A DNA stretch of 64,000 nt. Origin: Lachnospiraceae bacterium (GTDB lineage: Bacteria; Bacillota; Clostridia; Lachnospirales; Lachnospiraceae). The stretch covers positions 1-64,000 of the forward strand of contig JAILGE010000016.1 in assembly GCA_024697065.1 (NCBI GenBank), given 5' to 3'. How positions within the stretch are numbered: the stretch's first letter is position 1; each line of letters starts with the position of its first letter. Shown here piece by piece: positions 29,653 to 39,240 of the stretch. The notes beneath the pieces are model-generated. The model was not told the DNA's origin, did no database searches, and saw nothing but the letters and a program-made list of their open reading frames with translations. Position numbers and translations under genes: made by a program.

Positions 29653-31065
29653 ATGTATGAGAACAACAACAATAATGGACTAAACGGCACTTATACCGGA
29701 CAAAATGCAAACAGGACTTCTTACGGAACCTATATGCAGAATAATCCCGGCTATTATGCTTCCCAGTCCCAGTTTAATCCGGGAAATGGCGATCCGGGGT
29801 CAGGGGCACCTAAGAAGCCTGTTAAAAAAAGAGGCGGGATGGCGAAGAAGCTCATCGCTGCAGCATCGGTCGGCCTGATGGCAGGTGCTTTCTGTGCTGC
29901 GGGTTTTATCGGAGTGTATTTTCTCGGTTCCCGCATGGGTTTGATAAATAACAAACCAAACGAGGATGATAATAAACCTGTTGCATACAGCGCAGCTGCC
30001 CAGATCACTCCGGCTGCAACTGCTGACACGGATAAACCTACAGTAACCACTGTATCCTCTTCTTCTACCAAGACAGTAGTATCGGATGTAAGTGAGATGG
30101 TGGATGATGTTATGCCTTCCATTGTATCCATTACCAATAATATGACAGCTGATTATTATTATTTCTCTCAGGAGGAAGAGGGAAGGGGATCGGGTATCAT
30201 CATCGGACAGAACGACGATGAGCTGCTTCTGGTTACCAATTATCATGTAATAGCCGATAATGACAGACTTACAGTTACTTTCAGTAATGACTCCGATGCT
30301 CCGGCACTGGTCAAGGGAACCGACGCAAAGCTGGATCTTGCTGTGATAGCAGTCAAGCTGGATGATATCCCAGATGAGACTATGGACTACATAGAGATCG
30401 CATCCATGGGAGATTCCGATGCGTTAAAGGTAGGTGAACCTGCCATAGCAATAGGAAATGCCTTAGGATACGGACTCTCTGTCACAACAGGTGTTATAAG
30501 TGCGGTTGACCGTAAGCTTGATCAGGATTCCGTATCAGGTACATTTATCCAGACTGATGCTGCCATCAACCCCGGTAATTCCGGCGGAGCACTTTTGAAT
30601 ATCAACGGAGAGGTGGTAGGTATCAATTCGAGTAAGATCGGAGGAGCGGCTGTAGAGGGAATGGGATATGCCATCCCCATTTCTGCAGCAAGACCTATAA
30701 TCGAAGATCTCATGAACAAGAATACCAGAACTGTAGTGGCGGAAGAGGACAGAGGATATCTCGGCATCTCGGGTATATCGGTTTCACCGGAGGATGCACT
30801 TTACTACAGTCTTCCTGAAGGCGTATATGTATCAAGCGTGACATCCGGTTCGGCTGCAGAAAAGGGCGGCATCCTCAAGGATGATATCATAACCGGTATC
30901 GAGGGAACCAATGTCAGCACCATGGATGAATTCCAGAAGGAACTCGCATATTATGCAGCGGGCGAAAACGTAAGTATAGAAGTTCAGAGATTATCCGGTA
31001 ATTCGTACAAATCAGTCACTCTGACTGTTACACTGGATGACAAGAGTGTGCTGGAAGATGATTGA
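29653..31065 (+). CDS. HtrA/DegP-like membrane-anchored serine protease with PDZ domain
   Basis: The 470-residue protein has an Asn/Tyr/Gly-rich cytoplasmic head (~1-55), one transmembrane helix (~70-92, ASVGLMAGAFCAAGFIGVYF), a variable linker, a trypsin-like domain (~150-360) and a PDZ domain (~375-460, YLGISGISVSPEDALYYSLP then VTSGSAAEKGGI). The catalytic triad is visible: His198 (TNYHVI), Asp228 (LDLAVI) and Ser310 (GNSGGA). It acts outside the membrane in quality control of surface proteins. It is followed by a tandem repeat that begins at its stop codon and then by ClpX-like genes, so proteostasis functions cluster here. Confidence 0.92.
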   Translation: MYENNNNNGLNGTYTGQNANRTSYGTYMQNNPGYYASQSQFNPGNGDPGSGAPKKPVKKRGGMAKKLIAAASVGLMAGAFCAAGFIGVYFLGSRMGLINNKPNEDDNKPVAYSAAAQITPAATADTDKPTVTTVSSSSTKTVVSDVSEMVDDVMPSIVSITNNMTADYYYFSQEEEGRGSGIIIGQNDDELLLVTNYHVIADNDRLTVTFSNDSDAPALVKGTDAKLDLAVIAVKLDDIPDETMDYIEIASMGDSDALKVGEPAIAIGNALGYGLSVTTGVISAVDRKLDQDSVSGTFIQTDAAINPGNSGGALLNINGEVVGINSSKIGGAAVEGMGYAIPISAARPIIEDLMNKNTRTVVAEEDRGYLGISGISVSPEDALYYSLPEGVYVSSVTSGSAAEKGGILKDDIITGIEGTNVSTMDEFQKELAYYAAGENVSIEVQRLSGNSYKSVTLTVTLDDKSVLEDD

Positions 31066-31350: not shown

Positions 31351-32970
31351 ATGGAAAACTACGAAAATAATGATCTGAAGATCTGTTCTGTTTGCGGCCG
31401 CTCGGAAGATGTGGCGGGAAAGATGATACGCATGCCCTTCAATATGTATGTGTGTCCCGATTGTATGGATAAGCTTTCGGAGATGATGGACAGACAAATG
31501 GGAGATATGTCCGGGATGAATCCCAACGCTTCCGTTGACTGGTCAAAGATAATGTCCGAATACAATTCCATGGTAAAGAATCAGAATACAGGCTCAGACA
31601 GTGGAATGACTTCGGGAGCTTTTTCGGGAACCGAAGCGGTTTCATCAGAGACAGGATCCGGTGATGCGACAGGAGCATCAGATTCCGGAGCCGATATCGT
31701 AAATGGCGAAGGGCAGACTGCCTACGGTGAAAATGGTGACACTAAGACAGATGACAAAGAAAAGCAGGAAAAGAAAGCAGGAGGACCCAAGGTAAGTTTC
31801 CTGAATTTTGCGGATCTTCCTTTCGATCTCGGCTTTGGCGGAGGAAGCCGTTCCAAAGTCAAGCGAGCCAAGAAGGGGGAGGCGAAGCCTATCATGCCTC
31901 TTTCGGATGTGCCGGCTCCTCATAAGATAAAGGCTATGCTTGATGAATATGTGGTTGGCCAGGAAAAGGCAAAAAAAGCACTGAGTGTTGCTGTATACAA
32001 TCACTATAAGCGTGTTGCTGTAAATATGAGCGGAAGCGATATTGAGATAGAAAAGTCCAATATCCTGATGCTTGGACCTACAGGTTCGGGTAAGACCTAC
32101 CTTGTAAGAACCCTTGCAAAGATACTTAATGTACCGCTTGCTATCACGGATGCTACGGCTCTGACCGAAGCAGGATATATCGGTGATGATATAGAGAGTG
32201 TAGTAAGCAAACTCCTTGCCGCTGCGGATAATGATGCGGATAAAGCGGAGCAGGGGATCATATATATCGATGAGATAGATAAGATAGCCAAGAAATCGGA
32301 CGCTCACGCCAGAGATGTGAGCGGAGAATCCGTCCAGCAGGGAATGCTCAAGCTCCTTGAAGGATCCAATATCGAGGTGCCTGTGGGTTCCTCGTCCAAA
32401 AATGCAATGGTTCCCACCACTGTGATAAATACACGGAACATACTGTTTATATGTGGTGGTGCATTCCCGGGACTGGAGAAGATCATCGAAGAGAGATTGA
32501 AGAAGACCACATCCATAGGCTTTAAGGGGGAAGTAAAGAGCAAGGATGAGGAGGACAGGAATATCCTGAATAAAGCAGAGACCGAAGATATCAGAAAGTT
32601 CGGTATGATCCCGGAGTTCGTAGGTCGTCTTCCCATGGTATTTGCTCTCGACGGATTGGATGAAGAGATGCTTGTGAAGATCTTAAAAGAGCCCAAGAAT
32701 GCAATTGTAGCCCAGTATCAGAAGCTTCTCGAACTGGATGGGGTAAAACTGGAATTTGCGGATGAAGCGCTGGAAGTCATAGCGAAGAAGGCTATCGAGA
32801 AAAAGACCGGTGCCAGAGCATTAAGAGCGATACTTGATGAATATATGATCGATATCATGTACGAGATACCCAAGGATGAGAATATCGGAACGGTGACTAT
32901 CACCGGAGATTATCTGGAAGGGAAGGGGGCTCCTCTGATCGAAATGAGGACCATGGAGCTTCCCGGCTGA
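31351..32970 (+). CDS. ClpX-like AAA+ unfoldase with N-terminal zinc-binding domain
   Basis: The start is the ATG at 31351 after GAGGTGAGGTG; a GTG at 31345 is in frame but less likely. The 539-residue protein has a ClpX-type zinc finger (Cys12, Cys15, Cys35, Cys38) and then a ~110-residue Gly/Ser/Asp-rich linker absent from standard ClpX (about 420 residues). The AAA+ domain has Walker A GPTGSGKT (~242), pore loop GYIG (~274), Walker B YIDEID (~305), a ClpP-docking SIGFKG element, arginine finger VGRLP and sensor-2 GARAL. The RKH loop of canonical ClpX is replaced (GSSSKNAM). No clpP is adjacent. It could be the housekeeping ClpX or a specialised one. Confidence 0.85.
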   Translation: MENYENNDLKICSVCGRSEDVAGKMIRMPFNMYVCPDCMDKLSEMMDRQMGDMSGMNPNASVDWSKIMSEYNSMVKNQNTGSDSGMTSGAFSGTEAVSSETGSGDATGASDSGADIVNGEGQTAYGENGDTKTDDKEKQEKKAGGPKVSFLNFADLPFDLGFGGGSRSKVKRAKKGEAKPIMPLSDVPAPHKIKAMLDEYVVGQEKAKKALSVAVYNHYKRVAVNMSGSDIEIEKSNILMLGPTGSGKTYLVRTLAKILNVPLAITDATALTEAGYIGDDIESVVSKLLAAADNDADKAEQGIIYIDEIDKIAKKSDAHARDVSGESVQQGMLKLLEGSNIEVPVGSSSKNAMVPTTVINTRNILFICGGAFPGLEKIIEERLKKTTSIGFKGEVKSKDEEDRNILNKAETEDIRKFGMIPEFVGRLPMVFALDGLDEEMLVKILKEPKNAIVAQYQKLLELDGVKLEFADEALEVIAKKAIEKKTGARALRAILDEYMIDIMYEIPKDENIGTVTITGDYLEGKGAPLIEMRTMELPG

Positions 32971-33006
32971 TAAAAATAGTTACACTGATAAGCAGGTATC
33001 ACAGTC

Positions 33007-33039
33007 AAAAAATTCCGGACATTTAGTCCGGAATTTTTT
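33007..33039. terminator. Bidirectional terminator after the ClpX-like gene
   Basis: AAAAAATTCCGGAC and GTCCGGAATTTTTT form a perfect 14-bp inverted repeat around ATTTA. Confidence 0.9.
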
Positions 33040-33054
33040 GATGCCGCGTCGTCG

Positions 33055-33230
33055 TAATTCGAATCTGATTTTATTATTCCTCTCCGTTCGAAATTCGGAT
33101 CTGAATTTTCATTCCTCTCCGTTCGTATTTCGAATCTGATTTTTTTATTCCTCTCCTCTCCGGTCGGTCGTATTTCGAATCTGATTTTTTCATTCCTCTC
33201 AGTTCGTATTTCAAACCTGTTTTTTACTCC
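33055..33230. repeat. Array of about five ~36-bp degenerate tandem repeats
   Basis: Five copies of a unit containing TTCGAATCTGATTTTTT followed by ATTCCTCTCCGTTCGTA run from just after the terminator to about 33230. Unit lengths vary (33-46 bp), and one copy carries a small internal CTCTC duplication. The minus strand can be read as an Arg/Glu/Asn-rich peptide, but the varying lengths, lack of a start signal and overlap with the ClpX-like 3' end argue against a gene. Confidence 0.8.
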
Positions 33231-33240
33231 GCGGGTCGGA

Positions 33241-33349
33241 TTTTCGCGTTCTGCATACAATCCTGTATACAGAATGCGAAAAATGGCAGGTTAACATAAA
33301 ATCTGAGGTATTTTGTTTAAAAATGCCTCAAAAGTGCAGGTTAACATAA
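33241..33349. repeat. Two stem-loops, each followed by the same 14-bp sequence
   Basis: A strong stem-loop at 33241-33282 (TTTTCGCGTTCTGCATACA pairing with TGTATACAGAATGCGAAAA, 17 Watson-Crick pairs plus one G-U out of 19) is followed by GCAGGTTAACATAA at 33286-33299. A second stem-loop at 33304-33330 (TGAGGTATTTT with AAAATGCCTCA) is followed by the identical GCAGGTTAACATAA at 33336-33349. The paired layout suggests a duplicated small element. Nothing else is visible between here and the carbamate kinase terminator. Confidence 0.55.
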
Positions 33350-33388
33350 CTTGGGAACACAAACCTATTTTTTACGCTTCATAAAAAC

Positions 33389-33415
33389 ATCCCCGGTCAA
33401 TTGCTGACCGGGGAT
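33389..33415 (-). terminator. Terminator of the carbamate kinase gene
   Basis: On the minus strand CCCCGGTCA and TGACCGGGG pair around GCAAT and the hairpin is followed by ATGTTTTTAT. Confidence 0.85.
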
Positions 33416-33499
33416 TGTTAAATCATGATTTTACGCGATTGCATTCATATTTAAACATTGATGGATCCGGCTGAAATCAGCCCTGAAATATTATGTAAA

Positions 33500-34435
33500 T
33501 CAGGCTTTTATCACTGTTCCGGCCTTTCCGTGGAGTGCATCATCGGTTTTTGCAAGGGAAGTGATAAGAACTGTACCTCCGGGAACAGCCTTCAGATAGG
33601 AAATGGCTGCCTCTATCTTGGGAAGCATATTTGTTGTTCCGAATTCACCTGCTTCGATGTACTTTTCTGCTTCGGCAACTGTCATTGAAGATATGGGTGC
33701 CTGGTCCGGAGTACCGAAAGATCTGTATACACAATCTACGGATGTGAAGATGATGAGTTCATCTGCCTCAAGATCCGATGCAAGCTTTCCTGCTATGCTG
33801 TCTTTTTCGATGACGGCAGATGCGCCTTTAAGCTTGTGACCCTGTTCTATAACAGGTATACCACCACCGCCGCATGCTATGATATTCTCTCCTGCCTCTG
33901 CCAGTGTCCTGATGGATTCGATCTCAACGATACGAAGAGGCTTGGGAGCGGCAATGATCCTTCGGAATCCGTTTCCGGGGATCTCCTTTACGAAATTGCC
34001 TTTCTTAACTTCGACCTCGGCATCCTCGGCGGACATGTTTCTTCCGATTAGTTTCTGAGGCTCATAGAAAGCTTCGTCATAGGGATCTACGGTAACCTGG
34101 GTAAGGAGTGTGACAACAGGAGTGGCATCTCCTCTGTTTAACAGTTCGGAATGAAGAGCATTCTGAAGGTCATATCCGATATAACCCTGGCTCATGGCAG
34201 AACAAACGCACATGGGTGCGGGAGTATAGTCGATATATACGCGCCTGAGCTCGGTCATGGCTTTGTGTATCATGCTGACCTGGGGACCGTTGGAATGTGT
34301 TATGGTCAACTGTCTGTCCTGACCGGCAAGATCCGCGAGAGCGGAGGCTGTGATCTTAACAGCATCCATCTGTTCCAGAGTGTTGTATCCGAGGGCTTCA
34401 TGCCCGAGTGAAACTACGGTTTTCTTCTTATCCAA
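33500..34435 (-). CDS. arcC: Carbamate kinase
   Basis: The TTG start at 34435 follows GGAGGTGTCACC. The 311-residue amino acid kinase family enzyme interconverts carbamoyl phosphate plus ADP and carbamate plus ATP. Family features are THSNGPQVSMIH (usually THGNGPQVG), CSAMSQGYIGYDLQNAL, LTQVTVDPYDEAFYEPQK, the FRRIIAAPKPLRIVEIESI segment, IACGGGGIPVI and the LEADELIIFTSVDCVYRSFG region near the nucleotide site. The N-terminal loop reads SLGHEALG instead of the usual ALGGNALG, a variant I recall from other clostridia. No arginine deiminase or ornithine transcarbamylase gene is near, so it is an orphan, transcribed against the ClpX-like cluster. Confidence 0.9.
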   Translation of the reverse strand: MDKKKTVVSLGHEALGYNTLEQMDAVKITASALADLAGQDRQLTITHSNGPQVSMIHKAMTELRRVYIDYTPAPMCVCSAMSQGYIGYDLQNALHSELLNRGDATPVVTLLTQVTVDPYDEAFYEPQKLIGRNMSAEDAEVEVKKGNFVKEIPGNGFRRIIAAPKPLRIVEIESIRTLAEAGENIIACGGGGIPVIEQGHKLKGASAVIEKDSIAGKLASDLEADELIIFTSVDCVYRSFGTPDQAPISSMTVAEAEKYIEAGEFGTTNMLPKIEAAISYLKAVPGGTVLITSLAKTDDALHGKAGTVIKA

Positions 34436-34627
34436 GGTGACACCTCCGTGAAGACATATCTCAAGTGTGTTATATGGATCTGTCTTTACAATAAAATATT
34501 AACAATAAAAAAGTTACGTAACCTTAGAAAAGTATAGCACGTAATATAGAAGAAATCCATTGTTTTTTGAAGCTTATGAAGCTCCGGGAATGTTGCAACG
34601 GTGCGGTAAACAAGGTAGAATAAATCC

Positions 34628-36160
34628 ATGATAAATATTTTCAGAAATCTTGATAATGCAGGAAGACAAAAGAACCGTCCGCTTGGTGACAGACAGTCCG
34701 GCAGCTCACATGCAGGTGTGTCCGAATACATATTGAGACACCTGAGTGCCGTTTGCCCGGGAGAGCCGGAGGATTGGGAAGATATGGTCATCTATATCGA
34801 GATGCTGTATTTTCGTGTGATCGAGGACGCTTCCATAAAGCCGGAAGCCAGGAGTCTTTCCGATATGCTGGATAAGCTTGAGGATGATCTTGCTTATTCA
34901 AAGGAGATTTTTGGCAAAAGAGCCGGATTTGTCCTTGATTTTCTGGAAGCCGATCTCCTCAGAGGATCCATAAAGAACGGCGGGGAAGATGATGCCTGCC
35001 TTGTTATAGGCAAGATCGTTTCCATAAGGATGCGTTATTTCGGACATAAGAAAGATAAGTGCCGAATAAATGAAAAGATGTATCCGACCGAAATCAAATA
35101 CTATCTCGATACCTATATCATCGGTCAGAATGATGCCAAGGTCGCTATTGCCAATGCGGTATACGGACACGGCAAGCGTGTAAGGCATCCGGATGTAAGG
35201 TTTGCGCCGGATGTTGTATTGCTCATCGGTCCTTCCGGCTGCGGCAAGAGTGAGATCATGCGCAGGATAAAGGAATTGACGGGATACCCTATGGTATTTA
35301 CCGATGTTTCCAATCTGGGAGCCAGTCAGTACCGTGGCAGACACAAGGAGGACATCCTCTATGAGCTTTATGAAGCTGCAGGAAAGGATAAGAAACTGGC
35401 CGAAAAAGGCATAGTATTTATGGATGAGTTTGACAAGCTCCTTCTTCCCGCGGTATCCGAGAAGGGCATCAATGTTCATGATGATGTTCAGTCCCAGCTC
35501 CTTACCATGCTTGAAGGGAGCGATGTGGAGCTTAAGAATGACGGACAGTCTCTGGTTCTCAATACATCCAAGATGCTTTTTGTACTGGCCGGGGCTTTCC
35601 AGGGGATAGATGAGTTCATCAAGGCTGACAAGATGAAAAAGGAAAAAGTGCCCGGGAATATGGGATTTCTTTCTCCTCTTTCAAAGGATATGGACCTGGA
35701 ACTTGTCAGAGATAATATCAATCATGAAGTACTTATGAATTATGGTATGAAGCGTGAACTGGCGGGACGTATCTGCAGTATCGCGGTACTGGAGAAACTT
35801 AAGCTTGAGGATATGATAAGGATATTAAAGGAGCCTAAGGATAACCTGATCGAGCGCTATGCCAGAGAGATAAAGCTTTCATCGGGTGCGGAATTGTGTT
35901 TCGATGATTCGGCCATCACGGCCATAGCGGAGACTGCGATGAAGATGCCAGTGGGTGCCAGAGCTTTGCAGTCCATAGTTGGAGATATCATGATGCCGGT
36001 GCTTTACAGAGCTCCGGGGATAGATGATCTGAAGAAGATAATCATTAACAGGGATGTTGTGGAGGGAAAGGCAGCTGCCGAGTATATAACTTCCGAAGGC
36101 GAGTCCCTGGAAGGTATGATATTAGAGGGTTACGGAGAGGCAAATGCAGGAAGTCTTTAA
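34628..36160 (+). CDS. ClpX-like AAA+ ATPase paralogue without zinc finger, QYRG pore loop
   Basis: The 510-residue protein has no N-terminal zinc finger. Instead it has a ~150-residue helical, acidic domain of unknown type (VSEYILRHLSAVCPGEPEDW, YIEMLYFRVIEDASIKPEAR). The AAA+ core starts at YLDTYIIGQNDAKVAIANAV; Walker A is GPSGCGKS (~201), Walker B FMDEFDK (~264), arginine finger LAGRI and sensor-2 GARAL, so ATPase function looks intact. The pore-1 loop GYVG of ClpX is replaced by QYRG (~234), the RKH loop is deleted, and the IGF ClpP-docking tripeptide appears as MGF. It is probably an ATP-driven remodelling protein of changed substrate range. Its last 17 bp overlap the next paralogue. 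Confidence 0.8.
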   Translation: MINIFRNLDNAGRQKNRPLGDRQSGSSHAGVSEYILRHLSAVCPGEPEDWEDMVIYIEMLYFRVIEDASIKPEARSLSDMLDKLEDDLAYSKEIFGKRAGFVLDFLEADLLRGSIKNGGEDDACLVIGKIVSIRMRYFGHKKDKCRINEKMYPTEIKYYLDTYIIGQNDAKVAIANAVYGHGKRVRHPDVRFAPDVVLLIGPSGCGKSEIMRRIKELTGYPMVFTDVSNLGASQYRGRHKEDILYELYEAAGKDKKLAEKGIVFMDEFDKLLLPAVSEKGINVHDDVQSQLLTMLEGSDVELKNDGQSLVLNTSKMLFVLAGAFQGIDEFIKADKMKKEKVPGNMGFLSPLSKDMDLELVRDNINHEVLMNYGMKRELAGRICSIAVLEKLKLEDMIRILKEPKDNLIERYAREIKLSSGAELCFDDSAITAIAETAMKMPVGARALQSIVGDIMMPVLYRAPGIDDLKKIIINRDVVEGKAAAEYITSEGESLEGMILEGYGEANAGSL

Positions 36161-37697
36161 TCTGGATACAACAGAAGAGCAAAGGCTGTTCATCAGGAAG
36201 GAACTGGCTCTTTATGAGGAGGCGGGAGGATATCTTTCCGACTCGGTTCTTCTTGAAAAATATCTGGTCATCATCATTCATTATCTGATGATACGCAGGC
36301 CGAAGTTTGATCGTAACAGCTCCAGTATCTGTAAGCTCCTGGGAGCGAGTTACAAAGTAAAAAACTACAGGAGCGCATTCTGGACCATTATTTCCGAATC
36401 GCTTAATACCATGCCGGATGATGAGATCTTTTACGGTGCCCGCTCGGTTGAAAAAGAGATCACAAATAACGAGATAGATGAAGCCTTTGATTTCATGCAA
36501 TATGAGCTGGGCAAGATAAAAGAGCCGGCGGAAAGAGAAAAGCAGCTGGGGCTGCTGTCATTTTGCCGTGTGCGCTACCAGCAGGGTGTCCGATTTAATG
36601 ACATAAAGATGAAGGGGACGTCGGTCCCTAAAGGAAAGAAGGAAAAGAAAAGCCCTTTCATAGCACAATGTGAAAAATTCTTACACAGATACACTCCCGA
36701 AAAGATAAAAGAATATCTTGACAGATTTGTGGTCGGACAGGATGACAGCAAAAAAGTCCTGAGTACGGCTGTATATAATCATTATCTGAGGATACTCTAT
36801 CCTGAGGAAAAGCTCATCAAAAGCAATGTGCTTCTGGTGGGACCTACAGGATGCGGTAAGACTGAACTGATAAGAAGGATATCGGATCTGGTCAATGTTC
36901 CCGTATCCATAACGGATTTCAGCGGGATAGTGGCGACACCGTGGCGTGGACGAAACAAGGAAGAGGCGCTTTCTTCCTTATTTCTTAAGTCCGGGAACGA
37001 TATCGAAGCCGCGGAGCATGGCATTATCTTTTGCGATGAATTTGATAAAGTCATACCTTCGAGACAGTATTCGAGAGGCGGGGACATCAATGATGAGCTT
37101 CAGGGGCAGCTGCTTGGAATGTTTGAGGGGACGGAGATCGATGTTCCGCTAAGAGAGGGCAGTTCCGAGATCATCCAGATGGATACTTCCAACATTTTGT
37201 TTGTATGCGCCGGAGCCTTTGAAGGTTTGGATGAAATTGTCAGAAAAGACATGGATAAGGCAGGAATCGGCTTCGGAAGAGAAGTTAAGGATACGGGTGT
37301 GTTTGAACTGACACCTGATAATCTTGAGAAGAAACATCTTATCTCATACGGGATGAAGCCTGAGCTTGCGGGCAGACTGTCTGCGGTAAGCGTATTGCGC
37401 AAGCTTGACCGTGCTGCTCTCAGACGGGTACTTACCGAACCGGAGGATAATGTTTTAGAGAGATACATAAATGAATTTTGGGAGGAAGATTATATAGAGC
37501 TGGCTTTTACCGACGAAGCGCTTGATGTGATAATAGATAAAGTCATGAAAATGAATATAGGTGCCAGAGGACTAAATTCGATAATCCATGATATTCTGAA
37601 CAAGGCGATGTTCGAGGTGCCTTCAACTGAGACCATAAACACCGTTACAGTGACCCGGGAGGCGGCTGAAGGAAAGGAGAAACCTCTATACAGCTGA
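36144..37697 (+). CDS. ClpX-like AAA+ ATPase paralogue without zinc finger, PWRG pore loop
   Basis: The 517-residue protein has an N-terminal ~185-residue helical domain unlike ClpX (LFIRKELALYEEAGGYLSDS, EIDEAFDFMQYELGKIKEPA), then a ClpX-type AAA+ core starting EYLDRFVVGQDDSKKVLSTA. Walker A is GPTGCGKT (~233), Walker B FCDEFDK, arginine finger LAGRL, sensor-2 GARGL. Its pore-1 loop is PWRG (~266) rather than GYVG and its RKH loop is shortened, but a clear IGFG docking-type element is present (KAGIGFGREV). Translation is coupled to the preceding paralogue, pointing to a hetero-oligomer or paired function, and a diguanylate cyclase gene starts 1 bp after its stop. Confidence 0.8.
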   Translation: MQEVFNLDTTEEQRLFIRKELALYEEAGGYLSDSVLLEKYLVIIIHYLMIRRPKFDRNSSSICKLLGASYKVKNYRSAFWTIISESLNTMPDDEIFYGARSVEKEITNNEIDEAFDFMQYELGKIKEPAEREKQLGLLSFCRVRYQQGVRFNDIKMKGTSVPKGKKEKKSPFIAQCEKFLHRYTPEKIKEYLDRFVVGQDDSKKVLSTAVYNHYLRILYPEEKLIKSNVLLVGPTGCGKTELIRRISDLVNVPVSITDFSGIVATPWRGRNKEEALSSLFLKSGNDIEAAEHGIIFCDEFDKVIPSRQYSRGGDINDELQGQLLGMFEGTEIDVPLREGSSEIIQMDTSNILFVCAGAFEGLDEIVRKDMDKAGIGFGREVKDTGVFELTPDNLEKKHLISYGMKPELAGRLSAVSVLRKLDRAALRRVLTEPEDNVLERYINEFWEEDYIELAFTDEALDVIIDKVMKMNIGARGLNSIIHDILNKAMFEVPSTETINTVTVTREAAEGKEKPLYS

Positions 37698-37698
37698 G

Positions 37699-39240
37699 AT
37701 GATCGATTCGAGATTGGGGAAGCTTCAAAGAAAGATACTTGTGGCAACGATGTTTCCCGTTATGATAATGGGATGCATGATCGTTTTTTTTTCGATGAAA
37801 AGATATGAATCTCTTGTTTCGGAAGAGGTGGATAATTCGCTCCTTACAACGGCAAAAGCGGTACAGATGATGTATGACGATCTGTATCCGGGCGATTATG
37901 TGTTGGTAGGAGATACATTTGTTTCATTATATAAAGGTGAGAAAGAACTGACAGGAGATCATGCGCTGATAGATTCCATGGGCAGTGAGACCGGAGCAAC
38001 CATCACATTGTTCTATAAGGATGCAAGGATCCTCACAACCATGGTCAGTGAGAACGGTGCCCGTCCCATAGGTACCAAGCTCAATGACAGGATATACAAG
38101 AAAATGGAGTCCAATCCTGCGGTTTCTTATTACTCCGGATCGATCGGTGATGAGGAATATTATGAGTGTTATATGCCCCTCATCAATTCAGACGGAACCT
38201 TTATAGGTATCATCGGTACCGGTATGCCGGCAGCTACTGTCAAAGCAAAAGTCAGACATGCTACGTGGCCTATATTCACAGGTGCTCTGCTTTTAATGCT
38301 GGTTGCATCCCTCATCAGTATCAGATATACGACGGGAATGGTAAAGTCTATCGGCGACATCGGAAAGTTCTTAAGTGTTGTAACATCCGGAAAGCTGGAT
38401 GCAAAAATGAACGATACGACACTTAAGAGAGATGACGAGATCGGAGATACCGCCAAGGCTGTCGTAAAGATGAGAGATGTCTTAAGGATCATGGTTGAAA
38501 AGGATCCTCTCACCATGCTTTTTAACAGAAGATGCGGAAGCGGCAGATTTAAAAAGGTCCGGGATAGTGCGAGAAGGAGTGGCATACCTTTTTGCGTTGC
38601 TCTTGGCGACATAGATTTCTTTAAAAACGTTAATGATACATACGGTCATGATGCAGGTGACGAGGTTCTTAAATTTGTGGCGCTGGAACTCAGGCGTATG
38701 ATGATGGGCAAGGGCTTCGCTGCCAGATGGGGTGGTGAGGAATTCTTACTTGTTTTTGACGACAGTAATATTGATGAGACCAGAAAAGAAATGGAAGCAT
38801 TCCTTGACAGGATAAGAGCTTCTGTGATCCATTACGCCTCTAAAGAGATACGGATCACAATGACATTCGGTATCCTTGCCGGTGATCCCGAAGAAGATAT
38901 GAAAGAGTCGGTTAAAAAAGTGGACAAGGCTCTTTATTACGGAAAGGAAAACGGAAGAAACCGTATCATAAAATATTCGGATCTGACTATAAACGAAAGT
39001 GGAAAACAAGTACTTGTCAGTGAAGAAAAGTCTGATAGAATGAATGAGGATTCTATGGATGAGTTTACTTCGCTCCTTGAAGGATTCAGTCATGACAGAT
39101 CTTCGGATGCTAAATCGGATGCTAAATCGGATGCTAAATCGGATGCTAAAGTGGAAGAACAGATGGAAGATCTGATAATGAAGCTTTCCGAAAACGTGAT
39201 GCATGATATGAATTGGAAAGAAGGCAAAAACAAAGAGTAA
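37699..39240 (+). CDS. Diguanylate cyclase with extracellular cache-like sensor, HAMP and GGDEF domains
   Basis: The 513-residue protein has an N-terminal helix (~13-32), an external ~150-residue single-cache-like sensor (TAKAVQMMYDDLYPGDYVLV; YYECYMPLINSDGTFIGIIG), a second helix (~190-210), a HAMP-like linker and a GGDEF domain (~265-425). The domain has DPLTMLFNRRCGSGRFKKV, LGDIDFFKNVNDTYGHDAGD and signature WGGEEF; no RxxD inhibitory site precedes it. The C-terminal ~85 residues contain four exact SDAK repeats and an amphipathic end. It follows the two coupled ClpX paralogues with a 1-bp gap, so it is probably cotranscribed. Confidence 0.85.
   Translation: MIDSRLGKLQRKILVATMFPVMIMGCMIVFFSMKRYESLVSEEVDNSLLTTAKAVQMMYDDLYPGDYVLVGDTFVSLYKGEKELTGDHALIDSMGSETGATITLFYKDARILTTMVSENGARPIGTKLNDRIYKKMESNPAVSYYSGSIGDEEYYECYMPLINSDGTFIGIIGTGMPAATVKAKVRHATWPIFTGALLLMLVASLISIRYTTGMVKSIGDIGKFLSVVTSGKLDAKMNDTTLKRDDEIGDTAKAVVKMRDVLRIMVEKDPLTMLFNRRCGSGRFKKVRDSARRSGIPFCVALGDIDFFKNVNDTYGHDAGDEVLKFVALELRRMMMGKGFAARWGGEEFLLVFDDSNIDETRKEMEAFLDRIRASVIHYASKEIRITMTFGILAGDPEEDMKESVKKVDKALYYGKENGRNRIIKYSDLTINESGKQVLVSEEKSDRMNEDSMDEFTSLLEGFSHDRSSDAKSDAKSDAKSDAKVEEQMEDLIMKLSENVMHDMNWKEGKNKE
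39103..39150 (+). repeat. Four exact 12-bp repeats inside the diguanylate cyclase gene
   Basis: TCGGATGCTAAA is repeated four times without change, coding for four SDAK units in the C-terminal tail. Exact identity suggests recent slippage, so copy number may vary between strains without breaking the frame. Confidence 0.9.

Follow-up and report, generated by a model that had tools for sequence, protein, structure and literature searches.

Our analyses revealed that a 64,000-nucleotide stretch of DNA from a Lachnospiraceae bacterium (GenBank assembly GCA_024697065.1, contig JAILGE010000016.1, positions 1 to 64,000), referred to below as the window, carries two overlapping genes, designated B and C, that encode ClpX-derived AAA+ proteins with altered pore loops and N-terminal domains of their own. 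The pair is conserved in gene order and motifs within one genus and is under purifying selection. On balance, we think that B and C are two subunits of a single genus-specific ClpX-derived unfoldase, which would form a mixed ring, serve dedicated clients and probably use ClpP. A first-pass annotation of the DNA had described a cluster of three ClpX-type genes here, and all three are present on the forward strand, the third being a second ClpX, designated A, that lies upstream of B. Their features, by position in the window, are as follows.

34628 to 36160, forward strand: gene B, encoding a ClpX-derived AAA+ protein of 510 residues with its own helical N-terminal domain, a QYRG pore-1 loop, no RKH motif and an MGF loop
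34628 to 35083, forward strand: B N-terminal domain, residues 1-152, modelled as all-helical, with no accepted Pfam match
35327 to 35338, forward strand: B pore-1 loop QYRG, residues 234-237, at the position of ClpX G152-Y153-V154-G155
36144 to 37697, forward strand: gene C, encoding a ClpX-derived AAA+ protein of 517 residues with its own N-terminal domain, a PWRG pore-1 loop, no RKH motif and an IGF loop
36144 to 36695, forward strand: C N-terminal domain, residues 1-184, predicted helical at low confidence, with no accepted family match
36939 to 36950, forward strand: C pore-1 loop PWRG, residues 266-269
36144 to 36160, forward strand: overlap of B and C, 17 bp
31351 to 32970, forward strand: gene A, encoding a second ClpX with a zinc finger, a long linker, a GYIG pore loop, SKN at the RKH motif and an IGF loop

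Alignment of A, B and C to Escherichia coli ClpX, from which all residue correspondences were taken, showed that Walker A K125, Walker B D184/E185, the arginine finger R307 and sensor-2 R370 (E. coli numbering) are present in all three proteins, as the first-pass annotation had stated; the B protein of one relative (locus L020) carries GLTGCGKT as its Walker A. The Pfam domains AAA_2 and ClpB_D2-small scored above their cutoffs in each protein, and the sensor-2 GAR is kept. At the superfamily level, A, B and C are by these motifs single-ring Clp/HslU-type AAA+ ATPases; B and C each contain one AAA+ module, not the two of the two-ring Hsp100 proteins (ClpA/B/C). On the NCBIfam ClpX equivalog models NF003745 and TIGR00382, with cutoffs of 359 and 370.75 bits, A passed with 552.1 and 492.2 bits, whereas B (233.6 and 213.5 bits) and C (302.6 and 277.6 bits) fell below both, and the HslU model TIGR00390 (cutoff 362.45 bits) also failed B and C, at 126 bits. 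The C4 zinc finger was recovered in A (Pfam zf-C4_ClpX, 34.7 bits, cutoff 27), while Pfam gave no zinc-finger match in B or C, so that the domain searches and coordinates bear out what had been described: a zinc finger, long linker and GYIG loop in A, and no zinc finger and a 17-bp overlap in B and C. The E. coli RKH residues R228-K229-H230 have no counterpart in B or C. This loss had been recorded for B and C, correctly, and overlooked in A, where S-K-N stands in their place. The pore-2 loop is shortened in A, B and C, and not in canonical ClpX.

B and C therefore differ from ClpX in lacking the zinc finger and RKH motif, in carrying QYRG and PWRG for the pore-1 GYVG, and in their new N-terminal domains, and they differ from A, which retains the zinc finger, the GYIG loop and the ClpX score. 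Against this stand the likenesses. The AAA+ core is 38-42% identical to the aligned ClpX proteins for C and 30-34% for B, the ATPase residues are all kept, both proteins have an IGF-type docking loop, and the 50 Foldseek matches listed for the B model are ClpX chains that match its core. Thus, B and C fail the ClpX tests of score, zinc finger, GYVG and RKH, yet by predicted fold, ATPase residues and docking loop they probably work like ClpX. Among described paralogs, ClpX3 of Myxococcus xanthus is a lone gene, and the available part of its description mentions neither a pair nor a new N-terminal domain. Among the open-licence papers listed by searches on ClpX paralogs, pore loops and operons of ClpX with diguanylate cyclase and HtrA, none describes the B-C pair in its title or the opening of its abstract. 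The window genome encodes four ClpX-type proteins (canonical ClpX, A, B and C) and gave one ClpP gene match; a canonical tig-clpP-clpX-lon cluster, its genes named by reading, lies on another contig.

In the pore, E. coli Y153-V154-G155 corresponds to Y235-R236-G237 in B and to W267-R268-G269 in C; a structural position away from pore-1, which had been raised as grounds for dismissing these loops, was not what the alignment gave. Within the genus, whose genomes and loci are cited by G and L numbers, the B loop reads Q[YF]RGRHK in 31/31 and the C loop PW[KR]GRNKEE in 31/31 primary copies from genomes with C. These counts comprise 28 B and 30 C proteins picked by motif, together with the B proteins of L020, L026 and G008 and the C of G008, which were read separately; the motif-picked proteins came from loci found by similarity, and all such loci are accounted for. 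The motif survey dropped 23 canonical proteins, the A of L186 and the B of L020 on the Walker A pattern, and the B of L026 on the pore pattern. For comparison, GYVG stands in all 73 ClpX proteins taken from L058-L135 without reference to the loop, and 36 ClpX proteins from family and order loci (L137-L154, L157-L174), also chosen independently of the loop, divide into 16 with GYVG and 20 with GYIG. The corresponding counts of 55/55 GYVG in canonical and 39/39 GYIG in A-type proteins are circular, those proteins having been chosen by the loop.

The first-pass annotation had suggested that the basic residue in these loops might indicate acidic or nucleic-acid-bound substrates. The idea is not supported and was rejected: in the same genome, two two-ring proteins of 841 and 872 residues have SRYRGEFEER and AKYRGEFEER, respectively, in the pore of the first ring, while their second ring carries GYVG. 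By their motifs, we take these proteins to be ClpC and ClpB. According to a study of ClpB, KYRG lies in pore loop 1 and GYVG in pore loop 3 of that protein, and clients are bound by the tyrosines (PMC10870172). Thus, the aromatic-basic sequence is that of a known protein-gripping loop. The first AAA+ ring (D1) of ClpB and ClpC shares with B and C the aromatic-basic-Gly pore-1 loop; the similarity is confined to the loop and is presumably convergent; B and C are single-ring ClpX-type proteins. The pore change is most plausibly a move to another class of loop, from the G-aromatic-hydrophobic-G of ClpX to an X-aromatic-basic-G like that of the Hsp100 first ring, and not as a sign of nucleic-acid-bound or acidic clients.

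A search of 35 genus genomes with C found the pair in 31, with B directly upstream of C in 31/31. C is unbroken in 30 of them (loci L002-L031) and split over two frames in G008, a draft genome (L197) in which A is split in the same way, either through assembly error or as pseudogenes. The four genomes without C are G003, G029, G004 (77% complete) and G005 (67% complete), and this search returned no genome with B or C alone. The single, randomly placed homologs that would have spoken against a dedicated system were therefore not found, and the proposed picture of a conserved, coupled pair with an altered pore, new N-terminal domains and intact ATPase residues held up. With ATG starts, the distance from B to C is −35 to 0 bp in 26 of 30 loci (−17 in 10, −23 in 5, −4 in 5, 0 in 3, and −35, −11 and −1 once each). 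Longer distances of 26, 132 and 144 bp occur at one locus each, and that of G022 was left unmeasured because its B missed the pattern; alternative start codons give 0 for the 144-bp case (G030) and −17 for G022. In the window, GGAGAG stands four bases ahead of the C start codon, inside B, and together with the 17-bp overlap this suggests that translation of B and C is coupled.

Two genomes, G009 and G013, each have a second, very divergent B-C pair elsewhere (L047 and L048), again adjacent and in the same order, with loops that diverge from the primary ones (QSAG in B and QWKG in C at L047; QWGYK in B and QWKG in C at L048). The second pairs (L047:7103-10201 and L048:740-3783) sit among housekeeping genes, that of L048 ahead of a 757-residue protein with no Pfam match. 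The pair is thus the smallest unit seen in these genomes, and its fixed arrangement, the selection on both genes, the GGAGAG within B and the paired second copies together indicate that B and C function jointly. That they do so as a mixed ring is a plausible inference. Alternatively, each protein could assemble with itself alone, giving two distinct ClpX-like homohexamers that differ in their clients and have only their expression in common, which we regard as a serious though clearly less probable arrangement. It would fit the full set of ATPase and intersubunit residues in each protein, unlike mixed rings with one decayed subunit, and the unrelated N-terminal domains. It sits poorly with the fixed order of mostly overlapping genes, with second copies that occur as pairs alone, with the lack of any genome holding B or C singly, and with loop types that differ systematically between the two proteins.

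Outside its own genus, C gave no match at E ≤ 1e-100 in a family sample of 299 genomes from 298 genera. A more divergent profile matched 276/299 family genomes at 1e-90; of the matches listed outside the genus, best first, almost all are confined to the AAA+ core, a few reach further (G294 from position 60), and they score at most 336 bits versus 864 and 751 bits for C. In an order sample of 392 genomes, B scored 834 and 798 bits in the two that belong to the genus, and no other genus exceeded 288.5 bits. Scanning contigs with AAA+ core patterns, which gives no distribution of the pair, returned mostly canonical ClpX; among the 80 matches listed there were two true members, both from Lachnospiraceae metagenome-assembled genomes (RGIG7963, water-buffalo rumen; RGIG2882, goat omasum). 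Three genus genomes also encode single, distant ClpX-like proteins in other contexts (L177:5268-6710, L178:8144-9607 and L179:8838-9881); at 28-29% to the B/C cluster, they lie outside the pair family.

So narrow a distribution could be taken to point to a phage-defence or mobile-element machine, as could the second pair of L047, which lies beside a gene judged by eye to be tyrosine-recombinase-like, and weak PADLOC matches to DolB and IetA. We consider this very improbable. The PADLOC matches fall in the AAA+ core (one from residue 151 of C), reach at most 33.8 bits and are partial rather than whole-protein, and the neighborhood of the primary locus is largely fixed. Neither plasmids nor phages yielded a place covering 80% of C, the best 15 matches listed for each being to the core alone, and the C N-terminal domain had no relatives in the viral contigs searched. 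A phage or plasmid origin of the pair was accordingly rejected, with no place covering the N-terminal domain among the matches listed.

Ratios of nonsynonymous to synonymous substitution (dN/dS) between the window species and its sister (L032) were 0.056 for B, 0.042 for C, 0.059 for A and 0.074 for HtrA, rough values given a dS of 0.9-1.4, and place B and C under purifying selection. A view of B and C as functionless duplicates of ClpX, either decaying or selfish, which their long branch from ClpX and restriction to one genus might encourage, is scarcely credible: a dN/dS of ∼0.05 largely contradicts decay, and the pore motifs are fixed in 31 genomes, one of which (G008) has the split frame.

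In two trees, B and C form one clade (100/100) and the A type another (98/97 and 81/95). The best tree places the B-C clade as sister to A with weak support (83/18) and E. coli HslU as the single outgroup; a tree with B-C beside HslU was not rejected (P value of the approximately unbiased test, p-AU, 0.5), and the branches are long. The HslU-rooted tree left out L047, L048 and seven ClpX proteins. A is a genomic neighbor of the pair in many genus members, and the shortened pore-2 loop is common to both; A is therefore favored as the parent, and we infer from the sequences that a copy of A diverged and was duplicated in tandem to give B and C. By its motifs, A itself is an ordinary second ClpX. 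A-like ClpX proteins with the long linker and GYIG occur in many other genera of the family, accounting for the 20 GYIG proteins among the 36 chosen independently of the loop, and the RKH motif is replaced in the A-like second ClpX of the window (31351-32970), L138, L148, L157 and L190-L194. Some lie near an S8 subtilase (L190 and L046 by Pfam; L187, L188 and L194 by similarity to those).

The AAA+ part starts at approximately residue 153 in B and 185 in C, in agreement with the N-terminal domains of ∼150 and ∼185 residues first described. AlphaFold models built with N-domain alignments of three sequences show five helices in B residues 1-152, mostly at moderate confidence, and helices in C residues 1-184 at low confidence. 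The profile search proposed for these domains was run and gave no accepted family in Pfam or the PDB for either. Specifically, the 13 C and 13 B domains scanned against Pfam showed no more than scattered weak matches, of which the best was that of a single B member to SpoOE-like (0.0035), and a PDB sequence profile search with the B domain gave nothing under E 0.48. For C, the PDB profile matched designed tetratricopeptide repeat (TPR) consensus proteins at 7.5e-05 over ∼30 residues; no single stretch passed by itself, and a TPR assignment was rejected. Profile comparison revealed no resemblance between the two domains (probability 1.3), and on these searches each belongs to no recognized family. 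With the zinc finger and RKH loop gone, substrate choice may have moved to the two new helical domains, in which case the B-C machine would serve few dedicated clients.

The ClpP-docking residues I268-G269-F270 of E. coli ClpX correspond to IGF in A and C and to MGF in B. ClpP independence had been proposed for the MGF-bearing protein. This does not follow from the motif, which occurs in 10/39 A-type, 7/30 B, 4/32 C and 1/55 canonical proteins, with IGF in 20/30 B proteins. A hydrophobic-G-F loop is present in 29/30 B (the other has IGY) and 29/32 C proteins. The docking loop is thus mostly kept, which argues that B-C probably uses ClpP and can pass clients to the ClpP of the cell.

The genes around the three ClpX-type genes of the window are as follows.

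29653 to 31065, forward strand: HtrA-type serine protease (trypsin-like and PDZ domains), neighbor of A
33500 to 34435, reverse strand: amino-acid-kinase family gene between A and B, presumably a carbamate kinase
37699 to 39240, forward strand: membrane diguanylate cyclase (DGC) with sCache_3_3 and GGDEF domains and a GGEEF site, the next gene after C

The three-gene cluster described at first needs amending in one respect: the genes are there, and the reverse-strand gene at 33500-34435, which had been overlooked, separates A from B and C, so that A, B and C are not one simple operon. An imperfect tandem repeat (33052-33230, period ∼36 bp, 4.8 copies) lies between A and the kinase gene. HtrA, proposed as a partner of the pair, was rejected as such. 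It adjoins A even at loci without B-C (L050 and L051), and it goes with A-like ClpX in other genera as well (L191, L192, where genes intervene, and L193).

The DGC, the other proposed partner, starts one base after C in the window, and a GGEEF-bearing gene starts at most 185 bp past the end of C in 29/30 loci, so that the proposal stands as to adjacency; it is weakened by loci in which the DGC occurs without the pair. At the second pairs (L047 and L048), no DGC directly follows C, and at L047 a different GGDEF protein is encoded on the opposite strand, ∼2.5 kb upstream of B. The DGC gene has a dS of 0.14 between the window and L032, compared with 0.9-1.4 in the genes of HtrA, A, B and C, and it may have undergone recent recombination. 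Near its 3′ end (39103-39150), a 12-bp unit, TCGGATGCTAAA, encoding SDAK, is present in four exact copies, and a tRNA-Leu gene lies 3′ of it.

In many relatives, a large surface protein is encoded by the locus. Judged by eye, it begins with a signal-like stretch, followed by a Cys/His-rich domain, repeats and a low-complexity stretch, and ends in one membrane helix with a short C-terminal tail; one member of the family matches the Listeria-Bacteroides repeat weakly, below cutoff. Examples are L033:7788-10250, L034:8759-10882 and L045:2213-4153, with the Cys/His domain (A3) and the conserved membrane helix and tail (A1). The family has no Pfam match above cutoff, often lies just upstream of B-C and is nearly genus-restricted, with one weak match (3.1e-7) outside the genus in the family sample. 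The Cys/His domain was found in 25/35 genus genomes and the tail in 4/11 genomes checked further, three of them new, which places the protein in 27/31 B-C genomes and in G003, which lacks B-C. It directly precedes B in 17/24 primary B-C loci mapped; other genes intervene in G002 and G006, and no copy lies within the stretch seen around either second pair. In G015, one contig carries the surface protein, B, C and the DGC, and another carries HtrA and A (L185 and L186). Searches with the Cys/His domain and the tail did not find the protein in the window species, its sister, G008 or G022. B-C is under selection in the window species and its sister, and the surface protein is therefore not an obligatory client; as an obligatory partner it was rejected. 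It is a frequent associate of B-C and not an obligatory part.

In another reading, B-C would be a segregase or remodeller that acts without ClpP on membrane-anchored partners, tugging at the DGC or at the cytosolic tail of the single-pass surface protein and thereby setting their activity or turnover. The presence of the protein in most B-C genomes, its usual place directly before B and the grouping in G015 apart from HtrA and A would agree with such a role, whereas its absence from the window species, the sister and two less complete B-C genomes (G008 and G022), its presence in G003 and the mostly kept ClpP-docking loop would not. We think this role rather unlikely.

In the two-subunit unfoldase that we favor, B and C would be co-translated and would form, most likely, a mixed hexamer of the two proteins that hydrolyses ATP and threads substrates through its pore. 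Its clients may be envelope or cyclic di-GMP (c-di-GMP) signaling proteins of the same locus: the sensor DGC and, where relatives have it, the surface protein. Several points weigh against this proposal. The DGC persists where B-C is absent (L050 and L051), and selection maintains B-C in the window species and in its sister, where the surface protein is missing. The second-copy B of L047 has lost the pore aromatic, and the C docking loop is altered in three proteins, both second copies (GSF and QGF) and the primary C of G022 (L026, DSF). The model of the C N-terminal domain is of low confidence.

A more specific version, which we hold to be quite doubtful, is that a copy of A gave rise to an obligate B/C ring with alternating aromatic-basic loops, coupled to a c-di-GMP membrane sensor and, in most relatives, also to the cytosolic tail of the surface protein. 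If true, B-C would be the dedicated pulling machine of an envelope signaling module that includes a new surface-protein family. The ClpX pore loop hardly varies, and the Q[YF]RG/PW[KR]G pair is thus a natural experiment on its role. ClpX acts as a homohexamer, and the B-C pair bears on whether it can turn into a mixed ring.

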